From: Dictyoglomus sp. NZ13-RE01
GTDB taxonomy: Bacteria > Dictyoglomota > Dictyoglomia > Dictyoglomales > Dictyoglomaceae
Assembly: GCA_002878375.1 (NCBI GenBank)
Contig: NIRF01000001.1
Coordinates: forward strand, 414,056-478,055
Reading direction: 5' to 3'
Length of the DNA: 64,000 nucleotides
Under the pieces are notes generated by a model. The model worked only from the letters and a program-made list of their open reading frames with translations. It was not told the origin of the DNA and ran no database searches. The position numbers and the translations under genes were made by a program. Shown piece by piece: positions 23,662-47,706 of the stretch. How positions within the stretch are numbered: position 1 is the stretch's first letter; every line of letters begins with the position of its first letter.

Positions 23662-24784
23662 CAGGTAACTTGTCTGAAAGTTTGAAATAATATCTAAGAG
23701 CTTGAACTATTCTTTCGCTTGCTCTTCCATCCCCATAAGGATTAACAGCATTTGACATCTTCTCATACATTTCTTTATTCATTATTAAGTTAGATACTTC
23801 TTCCACAATTTTTTCCCTTGATGTTCCTACTAATTTTACAGTTCCAGCCCTTACTGCTTCTGGTCTCTCAGTGACATCCCTCAAAACTAAAACTGGTTTT
23901 CCTATTGAAGGAGCTTCTTCCTGAATACCTCCAGAATCTGTCAATACTAAATAGGAATTAGATATTAAATATACCATTGTACGATAATCTACAGGTGGAA
24001 TTATAAATACTCTTTCGTGAGATCCTAAAATTGGTGAAAATGCATCCCTTATTAATGGATTAGGATGCATAGGGAAAACTATATAAATATCTTCAAACTT
24101 ATCTAATAAATCCTTTAAAGCAAGAGCAATATTTTTCATGGGATCTCCCCAATTTTCTCTTCTATGACTTGTTATTAATATCATTTTTTTTCCATCCAAT
24201 ATAGGAACTTCAGAAGGCTTAAAATCACCTAAATTTTTGTATACAAATAAAAAGGCATCAATCACAGTATTTCCAGTAACAAATATTTTATCTTCAGGTA
24301 TATTCTCCTTAATCAAATTAACTTTAGCTGATTTTGTTGGAGCAAAATGGATATCCGCTAAAACTCCTGTAAGATGCCTATTCATCTCCTCTGGATATGG
24401 CTGGTATTTATTATAAGTTCTTAAACCAGCCTCTACATGACCAATAGGAATTTTATAGTAGAAGGCGGATAAACTTGCAGAAAATGTGGTTGTTGTATCT
24501 CCGTGAACAAGTACCATATCAGGTTTATCTTTCTCCCATATATCTCTTAATCCCTGTAAAACCTTTACAGTAATATCAGTTAGAGTCTGACCCTCCTCCA
24601 TAACATTTAAGTCGTAATCCGCATCAAGACCAAATAAATCCATTACCTGATCTAAAAGTTCTCTATGTTGGGCGGATAAAATGATTTGCACAAAAAACTC
24701 TTTAGAGTTTTTCAAGGCATAAGCAAGGGGAGCCATTTTTATAGCTTCGGGTCTTGTTCCAAAGACTAAAGCAATCTTAATCAT
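23642..24784 (-). CDS. wecB: UDP-N-acetylglucosamine 2-epimerase
   Basis: The enzyme interconverts UDP-GlcNAc and UDP-ManNAc for wall polymers. Marks are VFGTRPEAIKMAPLAYAL, VHGDTTTTFSASLSAFY, GHVEAGLRT, ITSHRRENWGDPMKNI and the C-terminal LTDSGGIQEEAPSIGKPVLVLRDVTERPEA. The 380 residues match the family. It likely works with the WecG/TagA enzyme 6 kb downstream in the same run of genes. It overlaps speB by 4 bp. Confidence 0.95.
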   Translation of the reverse strand: MIKIALVFGTRPEAIKMAPLAYALKNSKEFFVQIILSAQHRELLDQVMDLFGLDADYDLNVMEEGQTLTDITVKVLQGLRDIWEKDKPDMVLVHGDTTTTFSASLSAFYYKIPIGHVEAGLRTYNKYQPYPEEMNRHLTGVLADIHFAPTKSAKVNLIKENIPEDKIFVTGNTVIDAFLFVYKNLGDFKPSEVPILDGKKMILITSHRRENWGDPMKNIALALKDLLDKFEDIYIVFPMHPNPLIRDAFSPILGSHERVFIIPPVDYRTMVYLISNSYLVLTDSGGIQEEAPSIGKPVLVLRDVTERPEAVRAGTVKLVGTSREKIVEEVSNLIMNKEMYEKMSNAVNPYGDGRASERIVQALRYYFKLSDKLPDEFKGE

Positions 24785-25659
24785 TTCTTAGAAAACTCTT
24801 TATAATATCCAATAATCTTATATATTAAGCGAGCCACTATATAATCTGGAGCAATAAAACCAGGAATTGGTGAAAACTCAACCACATCTATTCCTAAAAC
24901 TCTTTTATTTTTAAAAACTTCCTTTAACAACGAAGTAACCTCAAACCAGTTTAGACCATAAGGCTCTGGTGTTCCTACTGAGGGAATCAATGAAGGGTCA
25001 AAAACATCTAAATCCAAAGTGATATAAACATTATCATCTAAGGAATCTATCACTTTGGATAGCCAATTTTTATCCTCTCGGATTTCATATGCCCAAAAAA
25101 CCTTGATATTTTCTTTCCTATTGATAAAATCTCTTTCTTCTTTTGAAAGACTCCTTATGCCCACCTGAACTAAAGGAAGACTTTCCCCAGCTTTCCTTAG
25201 AGCACAAGCATGATGATAAGATGTACCCTCATATTCCTCTCTTAGATCAGCATGGGCGTCCAAATGCAAAACACTAAAACTACCAAATTTTTCTTTATAT
25301 GCAGATAGTATCCCAATAGTAATAGTATGCTCTCCACCTAAAAAAATTGGAAACTTCCTCTTATTTATTAAATCAATGGTTAAATCTTTTATGTATTTGA
25401 GTGGTAAAACTAAGTCGCTAATAGGAAGCAAAGGCTCAGGGTAAGTATAAATACCTATTTCCGCAGGTATTGTATCTAATTCTTCATCATAAAGCTCCAA
25501 ATTGTAAGATGCGCTTAGAATTGCACTGGGACCTTCTTTTGTACCTTTTCTATAAGAAGTTGTTACCTCATAGGAAAGAGGAACAACAACCACCTGAGCC
25601 TTATCAAATGTAACATTAGAAACTCCTGCAAAAGAAGGATTCAGTTTAACCTGCTCCAT
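24781..25659 (-). CDS. speB: Agmatinase family ureohydrolase
   Basis: The family cleaves agmatine, or aminopropylagmatine in some thermophiles, releasing urea. The binuclear manganese site is intact: GGEHTITIG, LHLDAHADLREEYEG and TLDLDVFDPSLIPSVGTPEPYGL. It is 292 residues, normal. It overlaps speH by 14 bp, so polyamine synthesis genes are paired here. Whether the substrate is agmatine or N1-aminopropylagmatine cannot be told from sequence. Confidence 0.92.
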   Translation of the reverse strand: MEQVKLNPSFAGVSNVTFDKAQVVVVPLSYEVTTSYRKGTKEGPSAILSASYNLELYDEELDTIPAEIGIYTYPEPLLPISDLVLPLKYIKDLTIDLINKRKFPIFLGGEHTITIGILSAYKEKFGSFSVLHLDAHADLREEYEGTSYHHACALRKAGESLPLVQVGIRSLSKEERDFINRKENIKVFWAYEIREDKNWLSKVIDSLDDNVYITLDLDVFDPSLIPSVGTPEPYGLNWFEVTSLLKEVFKNKRVLGIDVVEFSPIPGFIAPDYIVARLIYKIIGYYKEFSKK

Positions 25660-26047
25660 TTCTACCTCTTCTCAAAAGATGGACAGGAAACTCTCTTCCT
25701 CTTACTAAGATCTCCCATTCTATCTTCTCTGGTTTGAATTTTTCTTCAATAATAGCTTTAGCTTTATCTATATCAAATAATTTACAGGAGAAAATATCTA
25801 TACTTACATAATTTAAATCAGGCCACGTATGAATTGCTATGTGACTTTCTGCAATAATAACTACTCCAGAGACCCCCCAATCCATGGGATCTTCTTCAGG
25901 AAGATATCTAATAACATATGGAGGCATGATTTTGTGCATACCAATCATTGTTGGAAGTTCATCAAGAACTCTATATATATAATTGACATCCTCTAATAAC
26001 TCTTTGGGACACCCATATAAATCTAAAACAAGATGCGGTCCTAACAT
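25646..26047 (-). CDS. speH: S-adenosylmethionine decarboxylase proenzyme
   Basis: The enzyme makes decarboxylated SAM, the aminopropyl donor for polyamines. It self-cleaves to form a pyruvoyl group at the serine of AESHIAIHTWP (Ser68 after Glu67); His73 and Cys88 (DIFSCKLFD) complete the active site known from the Thermotoga type. The 133-residue length is usual. It is the first gene after a strong promoter at 26.1 kb and leads speB. Confidence 0.94.
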   Translation of the reverse strand: MLGPHLVLDLYGCPKELLEDVNYIYRVLDELPTMIGMHKIMPPYVIRYLPEEDPMDWGVSGVVIIAESHIAIHTWPDLNYVSIDIFSCKLFDIDKAKAIIEEKFKPEKIEWEILVRGREFPVHLLRRGRNGAG

Positions 26048-27663: not shown

Positions 27664-28041
27664 CTAAATTATAGCAGTTGCTTCAATTTCAATACGTACA
27701 TCCTTTGGAAGTCTTGAAACCTCTACTGTTGAGCGTGCAGGTGGCTTATCTTTAAAGTATTCTGCATAAACTTCATTCATTTGAGAAAACTCCTCAAGGC
27801 TTTTCAGAAAAACTGTTGTTTTAACTATATTTTCTAAACTTCCTCCTATACTTTCAATTATAGCCTTTATATTTTCTATTACTCTTTTAGTTTGTTCTTT
27901 AATGTCCCCTTCCACCAAATTTCCAGTTTTTGGATCTATAGGTATTTGACCAGATATAAAAACAAAATTTCCAACTTTGATCGCCTGAGAATACGGACCT
28001 ATAGCTTTGGGTGCATTATCGGTGAAAATAACTTCCTTCAT
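27664..28041 (-). CDS. ridA: RidA family reactive enamine/imine deaminase
   Basis: RidA removes reactive 2-aminoacrylate made by PLP enzymes. The family motifs are [24 protein letters not shown], with the key Arg in [26 protein letters not shown] use the ATG at 28041 because GAGGAGGGC lies just before it; an in-frame TTG at 28056 would put that site inside the gene. The product is 126 residues. It overlaps the end of rdgB by 26 bp. Confidence 0.95.
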
Positions 28042-28648
28042 GATTGCCCTCCTCAATTAAATTTTTAATAATCTCCTTTGCCTTAAGAAAAGCCTTTGTC
28101 CTATGGCTTATCTTATTCTTATCTTCATTAGATAATTCGCCAAAAGTTTTTCTTAGGGGTGGATAATAAAATATGGGATCATAACCAAAACCAAAATTTC
28201 CCTTAATTTCCCAATTTATATACCCCTGAACTCTTTCTTCAATAAAAATTGGATTTTCTTTATCTTCAGGAGTTATTATAGCTAAACAACATACAAATTC
28301 TGCCACTCTATCCTCCCATTCCACATTCTTCATCTTATCAAGAATCAAACGCATTCTCTCTTCATAGGATATATCTCCTAAATATCTTGAAGAGTATATG
28401 CCAGGTTCATTATTCAAAAATTTAATCTCTAAACCAGAGTCCTCTCCTATTGCAGGAAGATTTGTTTTTTCACACACATAGAGTGCCTTTATAAGAGCAT
28501 TTTCTCTATATGAGGATCCACTTTCTTCTGGTAACTCATATATAGAAAATTCCTTTGGACTAACCAAAAACCCTGAAATATCCTTTAATATTTCCTTTAT
28601 TTCTCTTATTTTGTTATCATTCATGGTCGCTAAAACAATTTTTCTCAT
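28016..28648 (-). CDS. rdgB: XTP/dITP diphosphatase (non-canonical purine NTP pyrophosphatase)
   Basis: The enzyme clears ITP and XTP from the nucleotide pool. Motifs: [17 protein letters not shown] at the N-terminus, [25 protein letters not shown], and [33 protein letters not shown]. All match the HAM1/RdgB family. It is 210 residues. It follows rph, a very common pair, with a 4 bp overlap. Confidence 0.95.
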
Positions 28649-29367
28649 AATAACCCCAAAACCCTTTTTTGTGCTTCTATTAACTGTGCAATACCTTTTT
28701 GAGCTAAACTTAGCATTTTTTCTAACTGCTCAAGGGTAAAAGGAGTTTTTTCTGCTGTTCCCTGTATCTCTACAATTTTAAAAGTCTCAGTCATTACAAC
28801 ATTAAAATCAACTTCCGCTCTCATATCTTCTTGAGCTGCTAAATCCAAAAGAATCTCATTATCGAGTATCCCTACTGAAACTGCTGCTAAAAATTCCTTT
28901 ATGGGAAATTCTTTTATAACTCCCTCTCTTTTTAATTTAGTCAGTGCATCATAGAGAGCTACAAAAGCACCAGTAATAGCAGCTGTTCTTGTGCCTCCAT
29001 CCGCCTGAATTACATCTGCATCAACCCATATAGTTCTCTCTCCTAACTTACTTAAGTCAACAACTGCCCTCAAGGATCTACCAATGAGTCTTTGAATTTC
29101 ATGAGACCTTCCATTTATCATGCCTTTTGTTACATCTCTCACCTTTCTTTCAGGTGTTGAGCCAGGTAACATTCCATATTCTGCTGTAAGCCAGCCTTGA
29201 TTTGTTCCTTTTAAAAAAGGAGGTACTTTATCTTCTATCGAGACAGCACATAAAACTTTCGTTTCTCCCATCTCTATTAATACAGAACCTAAAGGATATT
29301 TAAGATAGTTTCTAAATATACGTATAGGTCTTAAATCCGAATTACTTCTTTTATCCGCTCTTATCAT
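28645..29367 (-). CDS. rph: Ribonuclease PH
   Basis: A phosphorolytic 3'-5' exonuclease that trims tRNA ends. Conserved segments are [67 protein letters not shown] and [25 protein letters not shown]. The 240-residue length is typical. It lies right after the methylaspartate cluster (4 bp gap) and leads rdgB. Confidence 0.96.
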
Positions 29368-29371
29368 ACTC

Positions 29372-30292
29372 TTACCCTTTCTCCTTTAGTATTTTTAATA
29401 CCTTATTATACTCTTCCATACTTACAAAACCAACTAAAAGAAAACAATCATCAATAGGTGAATATATGTATTCTGGATACAATACGAACTCATCTATTTT
29501 ACCAGTACTTTCTACATGCAAACGAGGACCTGTACATTTAATAATCTTATCACCAATCTTTATATGCTGAGAATCATAATAGCTAACAGGTAAATTCATA
29601 GATATATACTTTCTTACTTCTTGCTCAATCAAGTCAATCTCTATATGAGGTTTTTCTTTGAGAAATATAACAAATCCATGTATAACATCACTATGAGCTT
29701 CTATTAATCTCGAATATCCATAATCTTCTAAGACAATTCCTGTTAAGTCTTCTGCGGTATGAGCTTTTAACCGGAATTCGAGAGATTTAAAAACTATATC
29801 CGCAATTTCCTGAGGTTCTGGACCAAATATGTTTGGTCTTACTATAATAACCTCTTCACCAATACCTATTAGTATATCCGCATTCCTCTTTAAATAAGGG
29901 TATATTACTTCAAAATGTTCCACTACAACCTTTCTATCCTTTTCTAAAGCTCTTTTAATTGCTTCTGCCAATATATAAATTGATACAAAGGCAAGCTCAA
30001 ACCTTACATCAACATGATAAATATAATCCCTGAAAACATTCCTTTCATAATCTTCTAATAATGGTAATGGACGTCTATATATTCCTTCATCATCATTTGT
30101 TAGATTTAGTCCTGGAAAGAGCCCTCTTATCAATAGAGATTTTCCAGAGCCAGCAGAACCTATTATACCTATCAATTTATCGAAGGGTGAAAGATAATTG
30201 TGAGAAATTATATTGCCAAGAAGAACTAAACGTGCCTCTCCTCTTGGAGCATAATAAACGGCTTGTCTTAGTAGAACTTTCTCGCTTTTCAT
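29372..30292 (-). CDS. P-loop NTP-binding protein of unknown function in the methylaspartate cluster
   Basis: A 306-residue protein. A clear Walker A motif GSAGSGKS spans residues 45-52, followed by [20 protein letters not shown], whose acidic stretch may help bind metal. The second half contains [17 protein letters not shown] and [11 protein letters not shown], and a segment around [20 protein letters not shown]; the HTAEDL part recalls the second additional domain of alanyl-tRNA synthetase, a weak resemblance noted from memory. The first residues include [12 protein letters not shown]. Its ATG overlaps the fumarase beta stop by 4 bp, so it belongs to the cluster. It may be a kinase-like or chaperone-like protein; the function is not known. 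Confidence 0.7.
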
Positions 30293-30816
30293 TTTTCTAA
30301 ATAATAATCTCTACCAGAGGAGTCTATTGCTACCATTACAGGAAAATCATATAGTTCTAAGAGATAAATTGCTTCCGGACCTAAATCTTCATATCCAACA
30401 AGCTGGAACCTCTTTATTCTCTCAGAAAAATAAGCACCTGCTCCTCCTACTGTAGCAAAATAAATACCTTTGTATTTTCTAATAGCAGTTCTAACTTCTT
30501 CTCCTCTCTTTCCTTTACCAATAAATCCTTTTACTCCTTTTTCCAGCAAAATTGGAACATAGGGATCCATTCTCATACTTGTAGTTGGACCACAAGCCCC
30601 AATAATTCTCCCAGGAGGAGTGGGAGAGGGTCCCATATAATATATTACTGAGCCTTCTAATTGAAAGGGAAGTTTTTCTCCTCTCATTAAAGACTCAACT
30701 ATTCTCTTATGGGCAGCATCCCTTGCAGAATAGCATTCTCCATATAATCTAACCCACTCTCCAACCTTTAAATCCTCAATAACTTCATCCTTTAATGGTA
30801 AATAAATTTTCCTCAT
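30289..30816 (-). CDS. Class I fumarate/mesaconate hydratase, beta subunit
   Basis: This is the small subunit of a two-part iron-sulfur hydro-lyase (fumarase, tartrate dehydratase or mesaconase). The catalytic segment ARDAAHKRIVES is present, along with MGPSPTPPGRIIGACGPTTSMRMDPYVP and GKGKRGEEV. It overlaps the alpha subunit gene by 4 bp. In this setting, downstream of methylaspartate ammonia-lyase, hydration of mesaconate to citramalate is the most likely reaction, but fumarase or tartrate dehydratase activity is possible. Confidence 0.88.
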   Translation of the reverse strand: MRKIYLPLKDEVIEDLKVGEWVRLYGECYSARDAAHKRIVESLMRGEKLPFQLEGSVIYYMGPSPTPPGRIIGACGPTTSMRMDPYVPILLEKGVKGFIGKGKRGEEVRTAIRKYKGIYFATVGGAGAYFSERIKRFQLVGYEDLGPEAIYLLELYDFPVMVAIDSSGRDYYLEK

Positions 30817-31652
30817 ATAACAATTTCACCCCATCTTACAGCAGAACACTGCAAAGTAACTGCCAAAGGAAGACCTGCTATATGGGTAGGAAAGCTTTCT
30901 ACAAATACATCTAAAGCTGTTAATTTTCCCCCAAAACCCCCAGGACCAATATTTAGATCATTTACTCTTCTCAATATCTCTTCCTCTAATCTTCTTAAAT
31001 GCTCTTTATCGTTTCTTTTAAAAAGGGGTCTCATTATAGCCTTTTTAGATAAATAGACAGCTTTTTCCATTGTACCACCTAAACCAACACCAATTATTAA
31101 AGGAGGACATGCATTAGGTCCGTAGTTTTTTACATGCTCAACTACAATATTTATAATTTCCTCTTCGGACGTTGTTGGCAGAAGCATCTTAACCATACTG
31201 GCATTTTCACTCCCAAATCCTTTTATCATTACACTAATCTTTAAATTATCTCCTGGAATATAGTCCCAATGAACAATTGGTGGTGTATTATCAAAGGTAT
31301 TTTCTCTTATGATAGGGTCTTTTACTACAGATGGTCTTAAATAATTATTCAAATATACTTCTCTCACTGCTTTGTTTAAATAATCCATTATAGGACCCTC
31401 AATACATACATCTTCTCCTTTTTCAATAAAGATTAAAACCATCCCACAATCTTGACAAATAGGGATTTTCTTCTCCTTTGCAATTTGGGAATTTTCTATT
31501 AGAATATCCAAAACAATCTTAGCATTAATATTTTCTTCTTCATTCCTTTTTCTTTTCCATTCTAACAAAACATCATCCCTAACATTAAAATTTACATACT
31601 CAATTAATTCTTTAACCTTTTCGTAAATTTCATTAGCATTAACCATTCTCAT
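30813..31652 (-). CDS. Class I fumarate/mesaconate hydratase, alpha subunit
   Basis: This is the cluster-bearing large subunit. Motifs: IPICQDCGMVLIFIEKG with its cysteines, YGPNACPPLIIGVGLGGTMEKAVYLSKKA, GPGGFGGKLTALDVFVE and LQCSAVRWGEIVI at the end; these hold the 4Fe-4S ligands. The 279-residue length suits the split alpha form. The start lies within the end of the DUF4387 gene (14 bp overlap). Its role as mesaconase is inferred from the surrounding genes. Confidence 0.88.
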   Translation of the reverse strand: MRMVNANEIYEKVKELIEYVNFNVRDDVLLEWKRKRNEEENINAKIVLDILIENSQIAKEKKIPICQDCGMVLIFIEKGEDVCIEGPIMDYLNKAVREVYLNNYLRPSVVKDPIIRENTFDNTPPIVHWDYIPGDNLKISVMIKGFGSENASMVKMLLPTTSEEEIINIVVEHVKNYGPNACPPLIIGVGLGGTMEKAVYLSKKAIMRPLFKRNDKEHLRRLEEEILRRVNDLNIGPGGFGGKLTALDVFVESFPTHIAGLPLAVTLQCSAVRWGEIVI

Positions 31653-31959
31653 CTTCTATCTCAACCTCCAAAAGAGGAGCATGTTGTTGGGCACCATAAA
31701 CGTCAGAATCTCCAAAATCTCCAGAGGATATGTATCTTTTAATATTAGCTTTTACAGCAAAAGCTGGATCAAAATAAAAAACAGATAATACATCCTCAGG
31801 AGGAATATTATATAAGCTTGCCCACCAATCAGAAGAGAAATAATTTCTTTTTTTCAATTTATAATACATTTGTTCATCTTTAAAAATTATGTCAATTGTT
31901 ATAATAAAGGGACCACTATTCTTTGTCCTTATCACCCTCGCAATATCAATTAATTTCAT
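31639..31959 (-). CDS. DUF4387 family protein
   Basis: A 106-residue protein with the DUF4387 features: IRTKNSGPFIITIDIIFKD at the start and RYISSGDFGDSDVYGAQQHAPLLEVEIE at the end. I know of no proven function for the family; it is often found beside, or fused to, AtuA/DUF1446 proteins, as here. It has no signal peptide or membrane segment. It is 3 bp after the AtuA gene and overlaps the hydratase alpha gene. Confidence 0.85.
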   Translation of the reverse strand: MKLIDIARVIRTKNSGPFIITIDIIFKDEQMYYKLKKRNYFSSDWWASLYNIPPEDVLSVFYFDPAFAVKANIKRYISSGDFGDSDVYGAQQHAPLLEVEIEDENG

Positions 31960-31962
31960 ATC

Positions 31963-33303
31963 TCAAACCTCTTTTTTAATGATAGAAATATCTAAATAAT
32001 TTTCTTTAATGAGATGATAAATAGAGAATCTAAAAACTTCTCCCCATATTACATCAGAAGGAGAAAAAGGAAAAGCCAGGTTACCAGCAGTAGATATTCT
32101 TCCAGGATATCCATAATGAAGAAGAGTAGATCTAATAAAACCTATAACAGTCTTCGCAATTTTTTCGTTTTCACTAAGAACTTCAATTAAAAGTCCTATC
32201 TCATGACAAGCTTCTTTATTTTTCTCCCATTTTCCCATTACACCATTTTTCCCATACAAATGGAAATGTATTTTAAACTTATCTATCCAATCTGGAAAAT
32301 TTTCTTTTGTTATTAATTCCATTTCACTTAGTATATTATCTATCTGTGATATAAATATAGGATCTCTAATTCCTGCAAAACATACGCTTCTAAAACCAAT
32401 AAATTCTGCTCCTTCAATCTTTATCCATTTTTCCTTTGGTGGTATAAACTTTGTACCAGTCACCCTTACCATTCTCTCATTAATTTGAGAAAACTTTGTT
32501 TCTTCTAAAGAGATAGTTCCATCAGGACCTGCTAAGTGATAAGGATCTGACTTTTCGTATAGAGTATGGGCAGAGACTGAAAGCACTGTGCACCTTCTTC
32601 TTGGATTAAGAGGAAAAACATCAAAATAATCTGAGCTTAGGACTCCTATTAAACCATCTCTTCCGCTACCAGGTTCACTGGCAATAGCTCCACATTCCAA
32701 GATTTTGCCTAAATGCAAAGAAAGTCCCATATCATAACCTTTCATAACAGGTATTACTGCAAAAGGTGCTGGATCGTAGCTTCTCCCAGCAATAATTACT
32801 TGAGCATCTTCCTTTATCGCTTCCATAAATGGTTCTATACCAATCTGAGCAGTAATATTTGTGCATCTATCAATTATACTTTCATTCAGCTCAAAAGAGC
32901 CATCTAAACTACGAATATTTCCATCTTTCAATGCCTTTTTTACTCTTTCTTTATCCACATCAGTGTAAATAATAGAAACCTTAAAATGAATATTTAATTC
33001 TTTACATAGACTTTCTACTATAGAATAGGTGAAGTCCACTGATGATTTTGTCCCACATCCTCCAGCACTTCCAATTATTAAGGGAATATCCAAATCTTTA
33101 GCCAAAGTCAATAGTAGTGATAGATCTCTCTTTACTGCCTCAGCCTCAACAAAAGATATACCCTTTCCTAAATAATAAGGACCAGGATCTGTAGAACCTG
33201 CATCTACCGCAATTAAATCAGGTTTTTCCCTATAAGCTTCCTTATGACTTTCTAAAGGAAAACCATAACCCAATATAGCAGTTGGTGAATAAATCTTAAT
33301 CAT
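31963..33303 (-). CDS. AtuA-like (DUF1446) protein
   Basis: The 446 residues match the DUF1446/AtuA family: AILGYGFPLESHKEAYREKPDLIAVDAGSTDPGPYYLG at the start, PLIIGSAGGCGTKSSVDFTYSIVES, ITAQIGIEPFMEAIKEDAQVIIAGRSYDPAPFAV, GHLGKILECGAIASEPGSGRDGLIG (read here as HLGKILECGA) and an intact C-terminus. AtuA is named from acyclic terpene use in Pseudomonas, but its reaction is not firmly known. In this cluster it lies right after mal with no gap, so it may handle citramalate or another C5 acid. That is an inference. Confidence 0.85.
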   Translation of the reverse strand: MIKIYSPTAILGYGFPLESHKEAYREKPDLIAVDAGSTDPGPYYLGKGISFVEAEAVKRDLSLLLTLAKDLDIPLIIGSAGGCGTKSSVDFTYSIVESLCKELNIHFKVSIIYTDVDKERVKKALKDGNIRSLDGSFELNESIIDRCTNITAQIGIEPFMEAIKEDAQVIIAGRSYDPAPFAVIPVMKGYDMGLSLHLGKILECGAIASEPGSGRDGLIGVLSSDYFDVFPLNPRRRCTVLSVSAHTLYEKSDPYHLAGPDGTISLEETKFSQINERMVRVTGTKFIPPKEKWIKIEGAEFIGFRSVCFAGIRDPIFISQIDNILSEMELITKENFPDWIDKFKIHFHLYGKNGVMGKWEKNKEACHEIGLLIEVLSENEKIAKTVIGFIRSTLLHYGYPGRISTAGNLAFPFSPSDVIWGEVFRFSIYHLIKENYLDISIIKKEV

Positions 33304-34548
33304 TTATTTATAACCTCTCGCATTAAGAATAGCTATTGTTCTCTCCATCTCATTGTTTACAATCATCAACCCCTCATCAACACCCATGCCAGGCTTTGCT
33401 AATATCTGATCCGCCTGAGTTGCTAATGCAATATGGACCGATATTTGGGCAGATCTATCTGTTTCATTACATGTTCCTCCAACATAAGCACCAACTTTAT
33501 TTTTCTTACACAATAATACCGCTTCTATTGACTTGTGAATGCTACCAAGGACAGGAGTCTTTATTTGTATCATATCTACAGCATCAGCATTTATAAAGTC
33601 TTTTATATCTTCCAAACTATTACACCACTCATCCGCAACAATCTCCACATGAATTCCTTTCTCACGCAAAGCTCTTTTCAACTTACTTAGATATTCAATT
33701 TGAGCCTCTTTGTTTTCCAAATCTACAGGACCTTCAATTCTAAGCTTATAAGGATAGGCAATTTTTTCTAACTGAGCAAAATAATTAGTAATCTCCTCTA
33801 AATTGTAATTAAAGGCTATGCCAATAGTTCCATATACATCTATATGGAAGATTGGCTTATAATTTTCATCTCCCAAAATCTTCACCCTCTCCTTTATCCA
33901 ACCCAAGTATTCTATTAATTTTTCGCCTCTCCATCCCAACTTCGTTTCTACATTATTAATTAGTCCGTGAGGTAATACATCCGCCCTCTTCATGATCATC
34001 TTATCAACATTGTTGTATCTGTCATCTCCCGACTGACAAAATATAGGTACTCTTTTGGCAACTACTGGTAGATTATACTCCTCCGCTATTATTTCAGTCA
34101 TGGTTTTTCTCTGACTTTTGGAAAAAGCATCAAGAACTGCCTGTGTTAAGCCATATCTAAGTGCGGAGTGTAGCTTAATTGTTCCTATATTCCAATCTTC
34201 AATTATCTCTGATAGTTCTCTAAAACTTCTCCATTCTTTGTTTACAATGTTAGGATAAATAATATCGGTGATAATTTCTACAAAGTCTTTTGCTCTAAAT
34301 AGTGGCTCCCTTCCACCAGCACCAGAGTATTGTATTGCAGCACAATCTCCGAAAGCTATAGAGTCATCCTCCAAGATAAATATTATTGATAAACTTTCTC
34401 CCTTTTGGCGAACTGCGTTAAAACCATTTGTCAATGGAACACCTCTATAAGCAAAACCATCCTCTCTTGCACCTGCTTTTATGGCTCTTTGATCATCAAA
34501 ATAAAAACCCGAAAGCCCAATAGAATATAAAGCCTTTTTTATTCTCAT
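33304..34548 (-). CDS. mal: Methylaspartate ammonia-lyase
   Basis: The enzyme splits L-threo-3-methylaspartate to mesaconate and ammonia. It is an enolase-superfamily TIM barrel of 414 residues. The two catalytic bases are visible: His194 (VLPHGLINN) and Lys330 in DMIQIKTPVLGSIHKS, matching the known His194/Lys331 pair. Metal-binding FHIDVYG (Asp237) and YVGGTCNETDRSAQ are also present. It follows glmE by 6 bp and leads the AtuA gene. Confidence 0.96.
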   Translation of the reverse strand: MRIKKALYSIGLSGFYFDDQRAIKAGAREDGFAYRGVPLTNGFNAVRQKGESLSIIFILEDDSIAFGDCAAIQYSGAGGREPLFRAKDFVEIITDIIYPNIVNKEWRSFRELSEIIEDWNIGTIKLHSALRYGLTQAVLDAFSKSQRKTMTEIIAEEYNLPVVAKRVPIFCQSGDDRYNNVDKMIMKRADVLPHGLINNVETKLGWRGEKLIEYLGWIKERVKILGDENYKPIFHIDVYGTIGIAFNYNLEEITNYFAQLEKIAYPYKLRIEGPVDLENKEAQIEYLSKLKRALREKGIHVEIVADEWCNSLEDIKDFINADAVDMIQIKTPVLGSIHKSIEAVLLCKKNKVGAYVGGTCNETDRSAQISVHIALATQADQILAKPGMGVDEGLMIVNNEMERTIAILNARGYK

Positions 34549-34554
34549 AGTTAT

Positions 34555-36006
34555 CTATCTCCTTGGTCTTCCTATTAATCTTCCTCTACTTATAGCATAA
34601 ATATCATCTAACACCATTTGGAAAGAAACAGGTCTTTTCTCAAACTTAGCTCTCTCTTCTAATTTCTCTCTATGATAATTTTTAATCTCTTCAGGTATTG
34701 GGATGTTTCCAAAATCAAAAAATCTTATAGCTCCATTATTATCCCGTACAGGCATGACTCTACCTAAAGCATATTTACTTGGAGCAAAAGGAACATCTAA
34801 TACTCCAGCAGAAAAAGCCCTTACTGTTCCTATTAAGAAATCACCATCGCCCAACTCATAAACCTTGTTTAAAATGCTGAGCACTTCATTTTTTATAATC
34901 TCTTCCTCTTCTGAAATTAATTTCTCGTCTATAAAGTTTTGATTTTCTAACATTTGCATTATTTGTCTTGTATTCCTTAATGCTTCGCCATTTGCTTCTT
35001 TTGTAGGAATTCCAATTGCTTCCTGTGGAGTCTTAACAATAATCTTACTTGCAGGAGCCAAAACACCAGGAATAGTTCCATAACTTATAACTGCAAAGGC
35101 TTTTGCATAATCTTCAGGAAATCCTCCCATCCAATGATGAAAAACTGTCGTTACATGTACATCATAGTAACCAAAATCATTTAAGAATTTCTTTGTGAGA
35201 TTATACATAACCCTTACTGCAGCTACATCCTGAATTAAATTACCTCCCTGTCCATATCCTACGCTTATACTCTTTACCCCCTGTTCAGCTGCAAGAAGTG
35301 CCTCTATGATTCCTATACTAATTGATATGCAAGGTGGAACTAAAGTGCCCGTTAGAGGTCCAAAGGACTCTCTATTTATAATAATTCCATGATTTGCATA
35401 ATATCCTACCAGATAATCCACATATTGCCAATAAAGGAGAGAAGTTTCTAAGGGTACATCCTTTGCGTATGGTATATTATAAGAAATTCCTCCCCCCTCA
35501 AAAGAAGTAAAACCAGAGCATAAAGTTATTTCTGCTAATAGTCTTGCATCAGGAGATCCATGTCTTACTTCCACAGGAACATTAACATTTTCTATTATCT
35601 CTCTACATCCTTTTACTCCATAGTTTACTGCTGGAAAACCATTTAAAAGATGTCTTCCTTCTCTTAAACTTTCTTCAAGACCATTTTGAGCTTCCTTATA
35701 TCTATTCTGGCGAGTGTAACTATCAATTGTTGTAGGTAACAAATCTGCACCATTTTCCTCTAAATACTTAAGTAGTTCTATATGATCCTTTAATATAGGA
35801 ACTCCAGCCCGTGGCTGTAATAGTATCTTTTTCTCTTTCTCTGCAGTTTTTAACACATAATCACACCTTTTATTATCAGGAAGACTTTTCTGATATTCTA
35901 TTCCAAGATTAAGATCTACTTCTTTGCCAGTAATCCACGTATTTAAAACTTCATCTCTCATCCTAAAAAAATAATTCTCATCCCATCTTTTATTTTTTAA
36001 TATCAT
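34555..36006 (-). CDS. glmE: Glutamate mutase (methylaspartate mutase), epsilon subunit
   Basis: This is the catalytic subunit of the coenzyme B12-dependent mutase that turns L-glutamate into (2S,3S)-3-methylaspartate. The 483 residues have the signature VRHGSPDARLLAEITLCSGFTSFEGGGISYNIPYAKDVPLE, GPLTGTLVPPCISISIGIIEALLAAEQGVKSISVGYGQGGNLIQDVAA and TTVFHHWMGGFPED. It overlaps glmL by 17 bp. It needs the GlmS partner encoded two genes upstream. Confidence 0.96.
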   Translation of the reverse strand: MILKNKRWDENYFFRMRDEVLNTWITGKEVDLNLGIEYQKSLPDNKRCDYVLKTAEKEKKILLQPRAGVPILKDHIELLKYLEENGADLLPTTIDSYTRQNRYKEAQNGLEESLREGRHLLNGFPAVNYGVKGCREIIENVNVPVEVRHGSPDARLLAEITLCSGFTSFEGGGISYNIPYAKDVPLETSLLYWQYVDYLVGYYANHGIIINRESFGPLTGTLVPPCISISIGIIEALLAAEQGVKSISVGYGQGGNLIQDVAAVRVMYNLTKKFLNDFGYYDVHVTTVFHHWMGGFPEDYAKAFAVISYGTIPGVLAPASKIIVKTPQEAIGIPTKEANGEALRNTRQIMQMLENQNFIDEKLISEEEEIIKNEVLSILNKVYELGDGDFLIGTVRAFSAGVLDVPFAPSKYALGRVMPVRDNNGAIRFFDFGNIPIPEEIKNYHREKLEERAKFEKRPVSFQMVLDDIYAISRGRLIGRPRR

Positions 36007-37387
36007 TAGACCTTTCCTCCTTTGAAACCCTTACAATATATTTTGAGATTAGTTTATCAGATTTCTCTGGGAAAATTTCTGAAATTAAACCTATTGCATA
36101 TAATATATACTCCTTGTCAATAAAAATATCTGGATTTTTAGGTTTAAGAACAAAAGGTTCATTTGGATTAAATAAGGCAAAGGATATTGATTTCAAATTA
36201 TATGGGTTATAAATTAAAGGTCCACCAGTACCTATTAAAGCCCTTACATCAGTTAAATCTTTTCCATACTGAAAGTACAAACTTCCCATAGGAGAATAAA
36301 CAACCTCAATATGTCCCACATGTCTTCTTACTGCTATATCTATTGCAACAGAAGCCAATACATGATCAAAATATATGTCTTCTTCTTTTGTTGGAATAAA
36401 ATCCGTATTCTCTGACAAAAATTTCACCTTTTCTCTATAGGAATTGAGATTACCCAATAAATTTTTCCATACTTCTTCACTTACAGCTTCCCATAACGAG
36501 TAAGCACTAACCCTAACCCCTAAATCTCCCTCGACAGTTCTCTTTACATAAGGTTCTGGTAATCCTTTTAAAATAACAAAACTTTGAGTTGGTTTTCCAG
36601 ACGCAACAGAACAAACATCAGTGGTAGCTCCACCTACATCAACTAGCATTGTTTCTCCATTTAAACTTGAAAACTTCTCACATGCCTTCAGTACTGCAAG
36701 AGGAGTAGGCATTACTATACTATCTACAAATTTTTTTGCCTTATCCAATCCCTTTGATATTATTAATCTTTCTAAAAAAATCTCTCTTATCTTGCTTTGA
36801 ACAGGTGTTATATTTAATACACCAAATTCTGGCATTACATTTTCAGTTATATAAATTTCCTTTTTTGCTTTCTCAAATATCCTATGAACCTCATCAGCTA
36901 CATCCTTATTTCCAGCATAAATGACTGGTATATCTAAATCTAAACTACTAAGTTTTTTAGCATTAATAAGAGGGTAATATTTGTTTCCGCCATCTGTTCC
37001 GCCCGCCAAAACTATCAAATCAGGTTTCAATCTATAAATTTCATCCAAATCACTTTCCGAAAGTTCATAGCTATAGGTTTTTATCACCTTTGCACCAGCA
37101 CCAAGGGAGGCTCTTTTTGCTGCCTCTGCAGTTAAATCTGGGACTAAACCAACTGCTACAATTCTTAACCCACCTTTTGCACTACTTGTTGCTCTTCTCA
37201 CGTCAAAATCTTCTATTTTCTTACCTGTCTGCTTAAAAACTTCAGATAATGCATTATTTAATCCTATAGTTATATCAATATTTGCTGTTGACGGAGCTTT
37301 AGCCTTGGCAATAAGCTCGCATTTATCCAAATCAAAAGCAGATACCTTAGTAAAAGTACTACCCAAATCAAAAAACAATCCCAGCAT
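35990..37387 (-). CDS. glmL: Glutamate mutase reactivating factor MutL/GlmL
   Basis: An ASKHA-fold ATPase thought to reactivate B12-inactivated glutamate mutase. It opens FFDLGSTFTKVSAFDLD (phosphate 1 region), has LIVLAGGTDGGN, and MLVDVGGATTDVCSVASG (phosphate 2). The 465-residue length fits. It lies between glmS and glmE, the standard order of this system. Confidence 0.94.
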   Translation of the reverse strand: MLGLFFDLGSTFTKVSAFDLDKCELIAKAKAPSTANIDITIGLNNALSEVFKQTGKKIEDFDVRRATSSAKGGLRIVAVGLVPDLTAEAAKRASLGAGAKVIKTYSYELSESDLDEIYRLKPDLIVLAGGTDGGNKYYPLINAKKLSSLDLDIPVIYAGNKDVADEVHRIFEKAKKEIYITENVMPEFGVLNITPVQSKIREIFLERLIISKGLDKAKKFVDSIVMPTPLAVLKACEKFSSLNGETMLVDVGGATTDVCSVASGKPTQSFVILKGLPEPYVKRTVEGDLGVRVSAYSLWEAVSEEVWKNLLGNLNSYREKVKFLSENTDFIPTKEEDIYFDHVLASVAIDIAVRRHVGHIEVVYSPMGSLYFQYGKDLTDVRALIGTGGPLIYNPYNLKSISFALFNPNEPFVLKPKNPDIFIDKEYILYAIGLISEIFPEKSDKLISKYIVRVSKEERSNDIKK

Positions 37388-37388
37388 A

Positions 37389-37802
37389 CTACTTAAGTCC
37401 TAAATCCTTTTTTAGATCTTCTATAACTTCATCAGGCAGTGTCTTTGGTGGATAAACTCTATGAAATCCAAGTTGCTTAAATTTTTCTTCTACTTCTTTC
37501 CAATCTTTCTGCCCTACACCTAAATTACCACCTATATAGAGGATAATGTTTTCCAAACCTGCTTCAATCAATTTTTCTTTAAAACCTTGACAATCTAATT
37601 CAGCGTGTCCATATAAAGAAGAAACCAATATAGCCCTTGCTCCTGTCTCTAATGCAGCCTTGATAAAGTCCTCTTGAGAAGATAAGACCCCAATATTTAC
37701 AACATCAAATCCCGCATTCCTTAATGCATAATCCAAAACTCTTAAGCCTACTGCATGTACATCCGCTCCAATAACACCAAGGACAATAGTCTTTTCTCCC
37801 AT
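37389..37802 (-). CDS. glmS: Glutamate mutase, B12-binding sigma subunit
   Basis: This small subunit carries cobalamin. The DxHxxG motif is visible at Asp14, His16 and Gly19 (GADVHAVG), with the later [18 protein letters not shown] and [13 protein letters not shown] of the family. It is 137 residues, the usual size. It is the first gene of the glutamate mutase unit and lies 3 bp after the M20 peptidase gene. The symbol glmS is also used for glucosamine synthase; here it means the mutase sigma subunit. Confidence 0.95.
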
Positions 37803-44544: not shown

Positions 44545-46280
44545 CTACCATCCTATTAAGGGTCCTATTGTAGTCTTAATTACTCCAATAGACATAATTA
44601 TTTGAACAATATCCTGCCAGCCCTTTATGAAAACTTCAGGAACAAAGACTATATCATTTTCCTTTATCTCAATATCAAGCTTGCTTTGTCCCTTATTTAT
44701 CAAGTCATTCATATTTACATTAATAACCTTAGATTCCCCATTCTCCTCTCTTATAATGGAAACTTTATTTAGATTTGCCCTATCTTTTAAACCTCCTGCC
44801 AGACTTATATATTCTGTGAGTCTTCTTCCCTCTTTATATTCAAAAGCACCAGGATTATTCACTTGCCCTAATACATACACTAATCTTCTTTTCTCCGCTA
44901 TGTATATAGTATCTCCATCTTGCAATGATAAATTATCTTCCTCTTTTCCTTTTAAAACGTTATCTGTATTAAAAGTATATACTACTTTCTTTCTTTCAAC
45001 TACTCTTTCCAATTGCCCATTCTCTCTACTTGCTTTTGGAGTTAATCCTCCAGCACGAAGAATCATATCCCTTATTTTATCTCCTGGATTTACCTCATAA
45101 ACACCTGGATTCCTTACTTCTCCCAATATTTTTATAGTTCTAATTACAGGGGGGACATATATGACATCTCCTGGATAAACTTTAATATCCTCCTCAGATG
45201 CTTCCCCCAATACTAATGTTCTATATAAATCAACTATAACCTTATCATTTGGATTTCCTTTTCTTCTTATCTCAATATTTCTTAAACTTCCATTAGGTAG
45301 AACTCCTCCAGCACTATTTATTATTTCACTTATTTTTGCCCCCTCTTGGGTCTGACCAGATACCACCGTACCCTCAGGTGTAGTTCCCACCTTTTCAACT
45401 AATTGCACAGGTCCAGGATTTTTAACATATCCTAACACATAAACCCTTTTTACTTCAGCAAGGACACTTATAGTATCTCCATCCTGCAAAACCAAATTCG
45501 CCTTTTCTCTCTCTTCTGGTTTTCCATAAAATAGACTATAGAGGTCAAGCTCGATTCTTTCTCCTGTAATCTTGTCTAATGTAGCTCCAAATAAAGATGC
45601 ACTTGCTGTAAACCCTCCTGCCATATTTATAATATCCAAAAGCTTCTCCCCTTCCCTTATCTCATATATCCCTGGACTTTTCACCTGACCAAGTACCCTC
45701 ACATACTTTTTCATCAAAGGAACATATACTAAATCTCCATCTTCAAGATATGGGTTTTGGCTTAGATCTCCATTTTTTAAAAACTGTAAGTAATCAATTT
45801 CTATTATCTTATTTCCCCTCTTTATCTGTATCCCCCTAACTGATGCAGAACTCCTTAAACCTCCTGCCATCTTTATTAAATCATCTAACCTGCTTAAAGC
45901 AGAAAGGATATAGGTCCCTGGATTTGCTACCTCACCAGAAATAAATACCTTTATATTACGAGGATATAAAAGATCAATGGAAACAACACTTTTAGGATAA
46001 AATCTTATTAATTGCCTCGAAATCTCTTTTTGGGCATTTATCAAACTTAATCCTGAAATTTTTATACTTCCAATCAAGGGTAAGGATATGGATCCTGTTA
46101 AAGAAACTTCCAAGTCAAAAGTATCAGTAACATTATTTTCTCTTATTAAAAAACCCTAATCTTATCGCCAGGACCTAAGATATAACTTTCCGGATCTATT
46201 TGAGTTAGGTAAACTTTCTCTTGCGCAAAGGATATTGTAAGTAGAAGAATGAAAAATAAAAGGACTATAAACTTTCTCAT
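44545..46280 (-). CDS. SLBB polysaccharide export protein, split by a frameshift
   Basis: From the ATG at 46280 (an in-frame ATG also lies at 46283) the frame encodes a signal peptide and the start of the export domain (MRKFIVLLFFILLLTISFAQ ... ILGPGDKIRVF), then hits TAA at a run of six T. Adding one T restores LIREN and joins the main frame, which starts 46113 and runs 522 residues with at least five SLBB repeats (GEVANPGTYILSAL and similar) and a hydrophobic end. The neighbour gene keeps the matching LIKEK. Such proteins form the exit channel for exopolysaccharide. The break may be a real mutation, a sequencing error or slippage. Confidence 0.82.
45617..45951. repeat. Near-identical segment shared with the upstream SLBB gene (copy 1)
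   Basis: This 335 bp stretch aligns without gaps to 47012-47346 (offset 1,395 bp) with about two dozen mismatches counted by eye, and a run of about 97 identical bases. The flanking parts of the two genes are clearly more diverged, which suggests recent gene conversion or selection. Confidence 0.85.
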
Positions 46281-46290
46281 CATAACCTTT

Positions 46291-47706
46291 TTACTCCATC
46301 CTTACAGGTATGTTTACTATATCTCCATCCTCTAACTCAATATTATAAGTTTCATCACCCTTAGTAAATAATGTTGTCAAATCAAGATTTATAATCTTCT
46401 TTGTTTCTGTAATGTATCTCTCAAGGGTAACATTTTTCAAGTCCGCTCTAACAGTAAAACCTCCAGCCATCTCAATCAAATCTTTTATCTTTTCTCCCTT
46501 TTTAATCTCATAAATTCCAGGAGCTTTAACCTCTCCAAGTATTTTTACACTTTTTTCCATTAAAGGTACATATATAATATCTCCTGGAATTAATTTTATT
46601 GCCTCCTCATTAGTATCACCTTTTACTAAGACTTTAAATAAGTCTACTTCTTTTATCACTTTACCTTCTCTGATAATCTGTACCTTTCTTTGACTACCAA
46701 ATGGTAATATCCCTCCTGCTCTACTAATAAACTCACTGATTTTGGCTCCTTCCCTTATATCACTTTCTCCTAAAGCCATACCTTCTGATGTTACAAGAGT
46801 AAATGCTTGTGGTTTAGATACATAACCCAATACATATATCCTATTTACCTTTGTAGGAACAATTATAGTATCACCATCTTGCAAAGCTATATTTACCTTC
46901 TCATCCTTCTCAAAAAGCAACTTAAATAAATCTATCTCAATAATCTCTCTTTTGTTTTCTTTCTGCCTTTCTATCACTCCTCCAAATAGATCCGCATTAA
47001 CAGTAAGAGAACCTGCCATATTTATAACATCCAAAAGCTTCTCCCCTTCCCTTATCTCATAGATCCCTGGACTTTTCACTTGACCAATAATTTTTACGCT
47101 TTTTTTCATCAAAGGAACATATACTAAATCTCCATCTTCAATATATGGGTTTTGGGTTAAATCTCCATTCTTTAAGAACTGTAAATAATCAATCTCTATT
47201 ATCTTATTTCCCCTCTTTATCTGTATCCCCCTAACTGATGCAGAACTCCTTAAACCTCCTGCCATCTTTATTAAATCATCTAACCTGCTTAGAGCAGAGA
47301 GGATATAGGTTCCTGGATTTGCTACCTCACCAGAAATAAATACCTTATAACTTCTCGGATTAATGAGATCAATAGATATAATACTTTTTGGATAGAACTT
47401 TATTAATTGTCTTGTAATCTCCTTTAATGCATTATTTAGGGTAAGATCAGCAACCTTAATATTTCCAACCATGGGTAGAGAAATAGAACCTGTAGGGGAT
47501 ACTAATAAGTCGTATATTTCTGGAGGTTCTTTCTCTTTAATAAGATAAAGTCTTAAACTATCTCCAGGACCTAAAATATATTTTTCAGGATCAACTTGAG
47601 GACCAAAATATGGAGTCTGTTGTATAGATGTAGTTTTGCTCTCTTGAGAAAAAACAGGAGTAAAAAATAACAAAATACATATAAGGATAAAAAAAATCTT
47701 TCTCAT
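46291..47706 (-). CDS. SLBB polysaccharide export protein
   Basis: A 471-residue exported protein. The signal peptide is MRKIFFILICILLFFTPVFS; the poly-export domain follows (YILGPGDSLRLYLIKEKEPPEIYDLLVSPTGSISLPMVGNIKV), then four or more SLBB repeats of the form VKILGEVKAPGIYEIKKGEKIKDLIEMAGGF. It is intact, unlike its downstream paralogue. Wza/OtnA relatives build the outer channel for exopolysaccharide. It lies 37 bp after mglA with no promoter seen between them. Confidence 0.92.
   Translation of the reverse strand: MRKIFFILICILLFFTPVFSQESKTTSIQQTPYFGPQVDPEKYILGPGDSLRLYLIKEKEPPEIYDLLVSPTGSISLPMVGNIKVADLTLNNALKEITRQLIKFYPKSIISIDLINPRSYKVFISGEVANPGTYILSALSRLDDLIKMAGGLRSSASVRGIQIKRGNKIIEIDYLQFLKNGDLTQNPYIEDGDLVYVPLMKKSVKIIGQVKSPGIYEIREGEKLLDVINMAGSLTVNADLFGGVIERQKENKREIIEIDLFKLLFEKDEKVNIALQDGDTIIVPTKVNRIYVLGYVSKPQAFTLVTSEGMALGESDIREGAKISEFISRAGGILPFGSQRKVQIIREGKVIKEVDLFKVLVKGDTNEEAIKLIPGDIIYVPLMEKSVKILGEVKAPGIYEIKKGEKIKDLIEMAGGFTVRADLKNVTLERYITETKKIINLDLTTLFTKGDETYNIELEDGDIVNIPVRME
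47012..47346. repeat. Near-identical segment shared with the downstream SLBB gene (copy 2)
   Basis: This is the partner of 45617-45951. The shared stretch codes for GEVANPGTYILSALSRL through GQVKSPGIYEIREGEKLLD, about 112 residues nearly identical in both proteins. Confidence 0.85.

Follow-up and report, generated by a model that had tools for sequence, protein, structure and literature searches.

A methylaspartate pathway cluster of Dictyoglomus sp. NZ13-RE01 with a predicted CmlAB-type citramalate lyase and a predicted TsaE-like/AlaX-type fusion protein

The stretch of DNA analysed here (the window, 64 kb, positions 414056-478055 of its contig) comes from the 1.93 Mb genome of Dictyoglomus sp. 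NZ13-RE01 and carries nine closely packed genes at window positions 29372-37802, all on the minus strand. A preliminary description of the window had recognised in this set the methylaspartate genes glmS-glmL-glmE-mal and a class I hydratase pair. Pfam and NCBIfam bear this out, with GlmS, GlmL, GlmE, Mal, AtuA, DUF4387, Fumerase and Fumerase_C all far over their cut-offs. From the highest coordinates downwards, the genes and the neighbour that follows them are:

37389-37802, minus strand: glmS, B12-binding subunit of glutamate (methylaspartate) mutase (NCBIfam NF002612/TIGR01501, above cut-off)
35990-37387, minus strand: glmL, glutamate mutase reactivating accessory protein (NCBIfam NF040745, 584 bits, cut-off 475)
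34555-36006, minus strand: glmE, glutamate mutase catalytic subunit (TIGR01503, 735 bits; PF06368, 716 bits)
33304-34548, minus strand: mal, 3-methylaspartate ammonia-lyase (TIGR01502, 579 bits, cut-off 286)
31963-33303, minus strand: cmlA-type gene (AtuA/DUF1446, PF07287), predicted citramalate lyase subunit A (phmmer to PDB 9erq_A)
31639-31959, minus strand: cmlB-type gene (DUF4387, PF14330), predicted citramalate lyase subunit B (phmmer to PDB 9erq_B)
30813-31652, minus strand: mesA, class I Fe-S hydratase alpha subunit, mesaconase/fumarase (PF05681, 330 bits; NF004885, 335 bits)
30289-30816, minus strand: mesB, class I Fe-S hydratase beta subunit (PF05683, 181 bits)
29372-30292, minus strand: P-loop protein, predicted TsaE-like P-loop ATPase (residues ~7-158) with an AlaX/SAD tRNA-editing-type domain (~169-292) (AlphaFold2, Foldseek, VIA-align, weak Pfam matches)
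28645-29367, minus strand: rph, RNase PH, neighbouring gene (Pfam; gene order)

The AtuA, DUF4387 and P-loop genes are packed with gaps and overlaps as small as had been described. The P-loop gene is separated from rph by 4 bp and overlaps the hydratase beta gene by 4 bp; beta and alpha overlap by 4 bp, and alpha and DUF4387 by 14 bp. Further along, DUF4387 and AtuA are 3 bp apart, AtuA and mal abut (0 bp), mal and glmE are 6 bp apart, glmE and glmL overlap by 17 bp, and 1 bp lies between glmL and glmS. The edges of the cluster are indistinct, with murI and a PepT-like peptidase gene upstream and rph-rdgB-ridA (RidA-type) downstream on the same strand, so the nine genes are part of a longer same-strand run. 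Their order is retained in the other Dictyoglomota loci read, and in its entirety at one of them (L021, 'Dictyoglomaceae bacterium'). Our phylum sample comprised seven Dictyoglomota genomes of one family; DUF4387 is present in 7/7 and the P-loop protein in 6/7, the exception being a 72% complete genome.

The gene set is consistent with a complete Barker route from glutamate. GlmES would convert glutamate into (2S,3S)-3-methylaspartate, from which Mal would release ammonia to give mesaconate, and MesAB would hydrate mesaconate to (S)-citramalate. MesAB belongs to the class I hydratase family and its mesaconase activity is a prediction, given that sequence cannot separate fumarase from mesaconase. 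The AtuA/DUF4387 pair would then cleave (S)-citramalate to acetate and pyruvate, we infer with no need for the acyl-carrier-protein system that CitDEF uses. The Barker clusters of Clostridium tetanomorphum and C. tetani likewise contain glmS, glmL, glmE, mal and a class I hydratase pair, whereas their CitDEF and CitCXG genes are replaced in the window by AtuA and DUF4387.

Both replacement proteins match a citramalate lyase of solved structure, CmlAB (PDB 9erq, 9evf), over nearly their whole length. With phmmer, residues 2-434 of the window AtuA match 9erq_A (and also 9evf), deposited as citramalate lyase subunit A, at E=1.8e-136, and residues 3-101 of DUF4387 match 9erq_B, deposited as subunit B, at E=1.9e-26. 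All 456 residues of the CmlA in the structure align gap-free to an Escherichia coli plasmid protein (967 bits), and the locus encoding that protein reads glmS-glmL-glmE-mal-AtuA-DUF4387-symporter-class I fumarase-cobO, the same glmSLE-mal gene order as in the window. Unlike its enterobacterial relative, to which its CmlA is ~49% identical, the window pair comes from a thermophilic anaerobe. We conclude that AtuA and DUF4387 are a CmlA/CmlB-type citramalate lyase, with cleavage activity predicted in this organism. It tells against the assignment that CmlAB activity is supported solely by the name given by the PDB depositors, and that the proteins of this organism are without any known activity. 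Literature searches on DUF4387 and CmlAB found nothing relevant, and no match was returned by CmlA alone as a query for related loci in genome contigs or by blastn of glmE against E. coli.

This identification alters what had been said of the cluster. The preliminary description found no citramalate lyase genes in the window, which holds for the CitDEF type but not for CmlAB. It also described AtuA, DUF4387 and the P-loop protein as three genes of unknown role that, on the simplest reading, complete or control C5 acid breakdown in a new way. Completion by AtuA and DUF4387 agrees with their match to CmlAB; these two are, however, neither of unknown role nor new, as the structure of the matching lyase has already been solved, and it is the P-loop protein that still lacks a family annotation. 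Near relatives of the operon are on record: Kronen & Berg (2015; PMC4682846, Figs 4 and 5) pointed out a DUF1446 gene adjoining mal in Enterobacteriaceae, and likewise downstream of mal in Dictyoglomus thermophilum, a near relative with the same kind of operon. They detected no citramalate lyase activity in E. coli and left the function of DUF1446 and the fate of citramalate open; the P-loop protein does not figure in the passages concerned.

Pairs of AtuA and DUF4387 also occur without glm genes, near transporters, CoA-transferase or flavin enzymes, so the family probably acts on several substrates. The window pair might accordingly take a different acid, with citramalate cleaved by another enzyme, but several observations make this highly improbable. 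An enzyme of the isocitrate-lyase/PEP-mutase type was considered as a conceivable citramalate-cleaving candidate. The window AtuA aligns to CmlA from end to end, and it is 46-63% identical to AtuA linked to glm or fumarase genes as against 34-42% to AtuA from other settings. In a tree of 38 AtuA proteins, including six AtuA+DUF4387 pairs from other settings, it groups with the glm- or fumarase-linked proteins and apart from those six, with support of only 88/70 on the separating branch. Finally, wherever DUF4387 was linked in the genome survey described below, no linked CitF was seen. On Klebsiella and Neorhizobium plasmids (L010, L012), AtuA, DUF4387 and fumarase lie near dehydrogenases in the absence of glutamate mutase, an arrangement that suggests mesaconate or citramalate from another source.

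The relation between the two lyase types was assessed in 391 evenly sampled genomes of the class Clostridia, with linkage judged from listed coordinates; a full GlmE is encoded in 21 of them. CitF lies within ~10 kb of GlmE in 14 and on other contigs only in one. In six, DUF4387 is linked to GlmE, except that in one draft genome its linked partner is the P-loop gene, on a different contig. Linked CitF and linked DUF4387 never occur together (0/21; chance of zero overlap P=1.3e-4), although counts and P values for lyase type, here and below, ignore shared ancestry. A profile scan of contigs from about 85,000 species genomes placed relatives of the P-loop protein at 549 places, and among the best 80 loci, which were retained, AtuA occurs in 33, CitF in eight and both in none. 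A citramalate lyase set elsewhere in the genome, which had been named as an observation that would speak against the original proposal, was not found, in that CitF (PF04223) had no match in the host genome. We thus regard a methylaspartate pathway closed by CmlAB in place of CitDEF as very likely. Neither CmlAB nor CitDEF is encoded in the loci of Desulfotomaculum-type glm clusters (L022, L023, L025, L026, L028, L040), where the P-loop gene is separated from mal/glmE by genes for a 2-hydroxyglutaryl-CoA dehydratase D-type protein and for the activator of this enzyme.

The direction of flux was inferred as degradative, yet the pathway could also run in reverse and make glutamate from pyruvate and acetate. 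Each of the reactions is considered reversible, and no Si-citrate synthase turned up in the seven Dictyoglomota genomes, as against 13/14 controls that have it. However, the host has an NADP-isocitrate dehydrogenase (645 bits, cut-off 335) and also encodes a NifV/homocitrate-type synthase (L117) that may be a Re-citrate synthase, so 2-oxoglutarate can probably be made in the usual way and nothing compels the pathway to run in reverse. At cell concentrations, condensation with free acetate is, moreover, unfavourable. The citramalate synthase present in the host is CimA, which yields (R)-citramalate for isoleucine, a product that would not feed an (S)-specific route. Glutamate synthesis by this pathway therefore appears improbable.

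The P-loop protein matched no Pfam or NCBIfam family at E<=0.001, yet it closely tracks glutamate mutase. Among the best 80 of the 549 loci, GlmE lies within the locus in 48 and elsewhere in the genome for 29 of the other 32 (77/80 in total), and the three genomes lacking it appear to be incomplete metagenome genomes. A strong P-loop match was found in 14 of the 391 Clostridia genomes, 12 of them with GlmE against 0.75 expected (P about 1e-15). Co-occurrence with glmE in other genomes, proposed as a check in the preliminary description, was seen for all three of AtuA, DUF4387 and the P-loop protein. The last is present in 6/6 CmlAB-type but 5/14 CitF-type GlmE genomes (one-sided P=0.012); its gene lies between citC and citX in Peptoclostridium acidaminophilum and between DUF4387 and the hydratase in Prevotella nigrescens. 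As it occurs with either lyase type, it is tied to the glutamate mutase pathway rather than to the lyase part. A role as a component of CmlAB or of the CitDEF assembly was rejected on the same grounds, and the suggestion that it completes C5 acid breakdown is not supported, its predicted fold pointing instead to tRNA.

This fold was obtained from an AlphaFold2 model built on a 42-sequence alignment (mean predicted local distance difference test score 90.3, predicted template modelling (TM) score 0.82). VIA-align placed residues ~7-158 of the model on TsaE/YjeE with Z about 10, other P-loop folds reaching about 7 at most, and residues ~169-292 on the editing domains of AlaX (AlaX-M), AlaRS and ThrRS with Z about 15. 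Foldseek agrees on both domains (E 3.6e-5 for TsaE and 1.7e-4 for SAD); its matches to aminotransferases (TM about 0.2, root-mean-square deviation about 15) were discarded as spurious. Weak Pfam matches point the same way, TsaE being found in 40 of the 42 relatives (best E 1.8e-5) and tRNA_SAD in 35 (best E 8.9e-5), with none of the latter listed for the window protein itself. On this modelling, the protein joins a TsaE-like ATPase and an AlaX-type (SAD) editing domain in one chain.

Each half departs from its known counterpart. The Walker A residues G45, G48, G50, K51 and S52 are invariant (42/42), and the window protein shares with TsaE a P-loop fold and a sequence match to the TsaE of a phylum relative (E=3e-4). 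That relative's true tsaE, however, adjoins tsaB- and tsaD-like reading frames (L019) and is separate from the P-loop gene; an identity as true TsaE was rejected, and a part in t6A synthesis with TsaB/TsaD is for this reason unlikely. The C-terminal half conserves the positions that correspond to the metal ligands of AlaX, AlaRS and ThrRS: H178, D182, C253 and H259 are invariant in 42/42, and in a profile alignment with the metal site of E. coli AlaRS, HTAED falls on HSATH and CTGPRLH on CGGTH. Unlike in those SAD domains, the second His is replaced by Asp, and the Cys-His spacing is longer by two residues, one of them a nearly invariant Arg (R257, 41/42). The domain is further set apart by its fusion to a TsaE-like ATPase and its link to a pathway.

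In our reading, the P-loop protein is not a chemical step of the pathway. The intermediate 3-methylaspartate is a non-protein amino acid, aspartate-like and an isomer of glutamate, and cells that produce it heavily may mischarge tRNA with it. Most likely, if the protein edits at all, it would deacylate tRNA mischarged with 3-methylaspartate and so protect translation, and the extra Arg at the metal site could provide a contact for an acidic side chain. The co-occurrence of a trans-editing domain with the mutase that makes 3-methylaspartate fits such a proofreading role. We offer this editing role tentatively, as somewhat less probable than its opposite, and with greater doubt its narrower form, in which the protein would be a pathway-dedicated, ATP-dependent AlaX-type trans-editing factor.

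A different role would be that of a sensor or chaperone, in which glutamate or methylaspartate, as an amino acid of the pathway, is the ligand of the SAD domain, and the P-loop ATPase or kinase serves to regulate or mature either glutamate mutase or the Fe-S hydratase. The tight operon junctions of the P-loop gene with mesAB and cmlB, and its presence alongside either lyase, would suit this role, and other B12 mutases are known to have P-loop chaperones (MeaB/MMAA, PMC10481361). Nevertheless, the reactivator of glutamate mutase is already known to be GlmL, the TsaE match is distinct among P-loop folds, and the editing domain shows no variation at its metal-site residues (42/42). The gene also remains beside rph-rdgB even where the glm genes lie elsewhere. 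We consider a sensor or chaperone possible, though less likely than not. The gene directly after the P-loop gene is rph in 37 of 71 scored loci, including Desulfosporosinus loci without glm genes nearby. A run of rph and then usually rdgB (28016-29367 in the window) directly after the P-loop gene recurs in about half of the loci L021-L100, from Dictyoglomota, Desulfotomaculum-like organisms, Desulfosporosinus and Halanaerobiales, even with glm genes elsewhere.

Several points also weigh against editing. SAD-like domains can occur in non-editing proteins, and the metal ligands here are a variant HxxxD...CxxxxxH rather than the classical HxxxH/CxxxH. The site is not universal, since Glu and Gln take the places of D182 and H259 in a more distant protein from Prevotella. 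Enterobacterial glm clusters and 9/14 CitF-type GlmE genomes lack the P-loop protein, which is thus not essential to the pathway. Literature searches found no report of 3-methylaspartate charged to tRNA and no paper linking TsaE or AlaX with glutamate mutase. Taken whole, an explanation combining the complete Barker route, its closure by CmlAB and a P-loop guard against 3-methylaspartate has, in our judgement, a little less than an even chance of being right.

Two further features of the window lie outside the cluster. At 24781-26047, speD (AdoMet decarboxylase) overlaps an agmatinase/arginase-family gene by 14 bp, likely as a small polyamine operon. Two adjacent polysaccharide-export-like proteins of 522 and 471 amino acids (44545-47706) share long near-identical stretches and resemble a tandem duplication.

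The identification of CmlAB answers the question raised by the preliminary description, and it is relevant to what becomes of citramalate in the clusters of E. coli O157:H7 and Dictyoglomus, a point that had been left open in 2015. The part most worth following is the P-loop protein. If it does edit tRNA, this would be a metabolic pathway that comes with a dedicated proofreader of translation, directed at an intermediate which the pathway itself produces.

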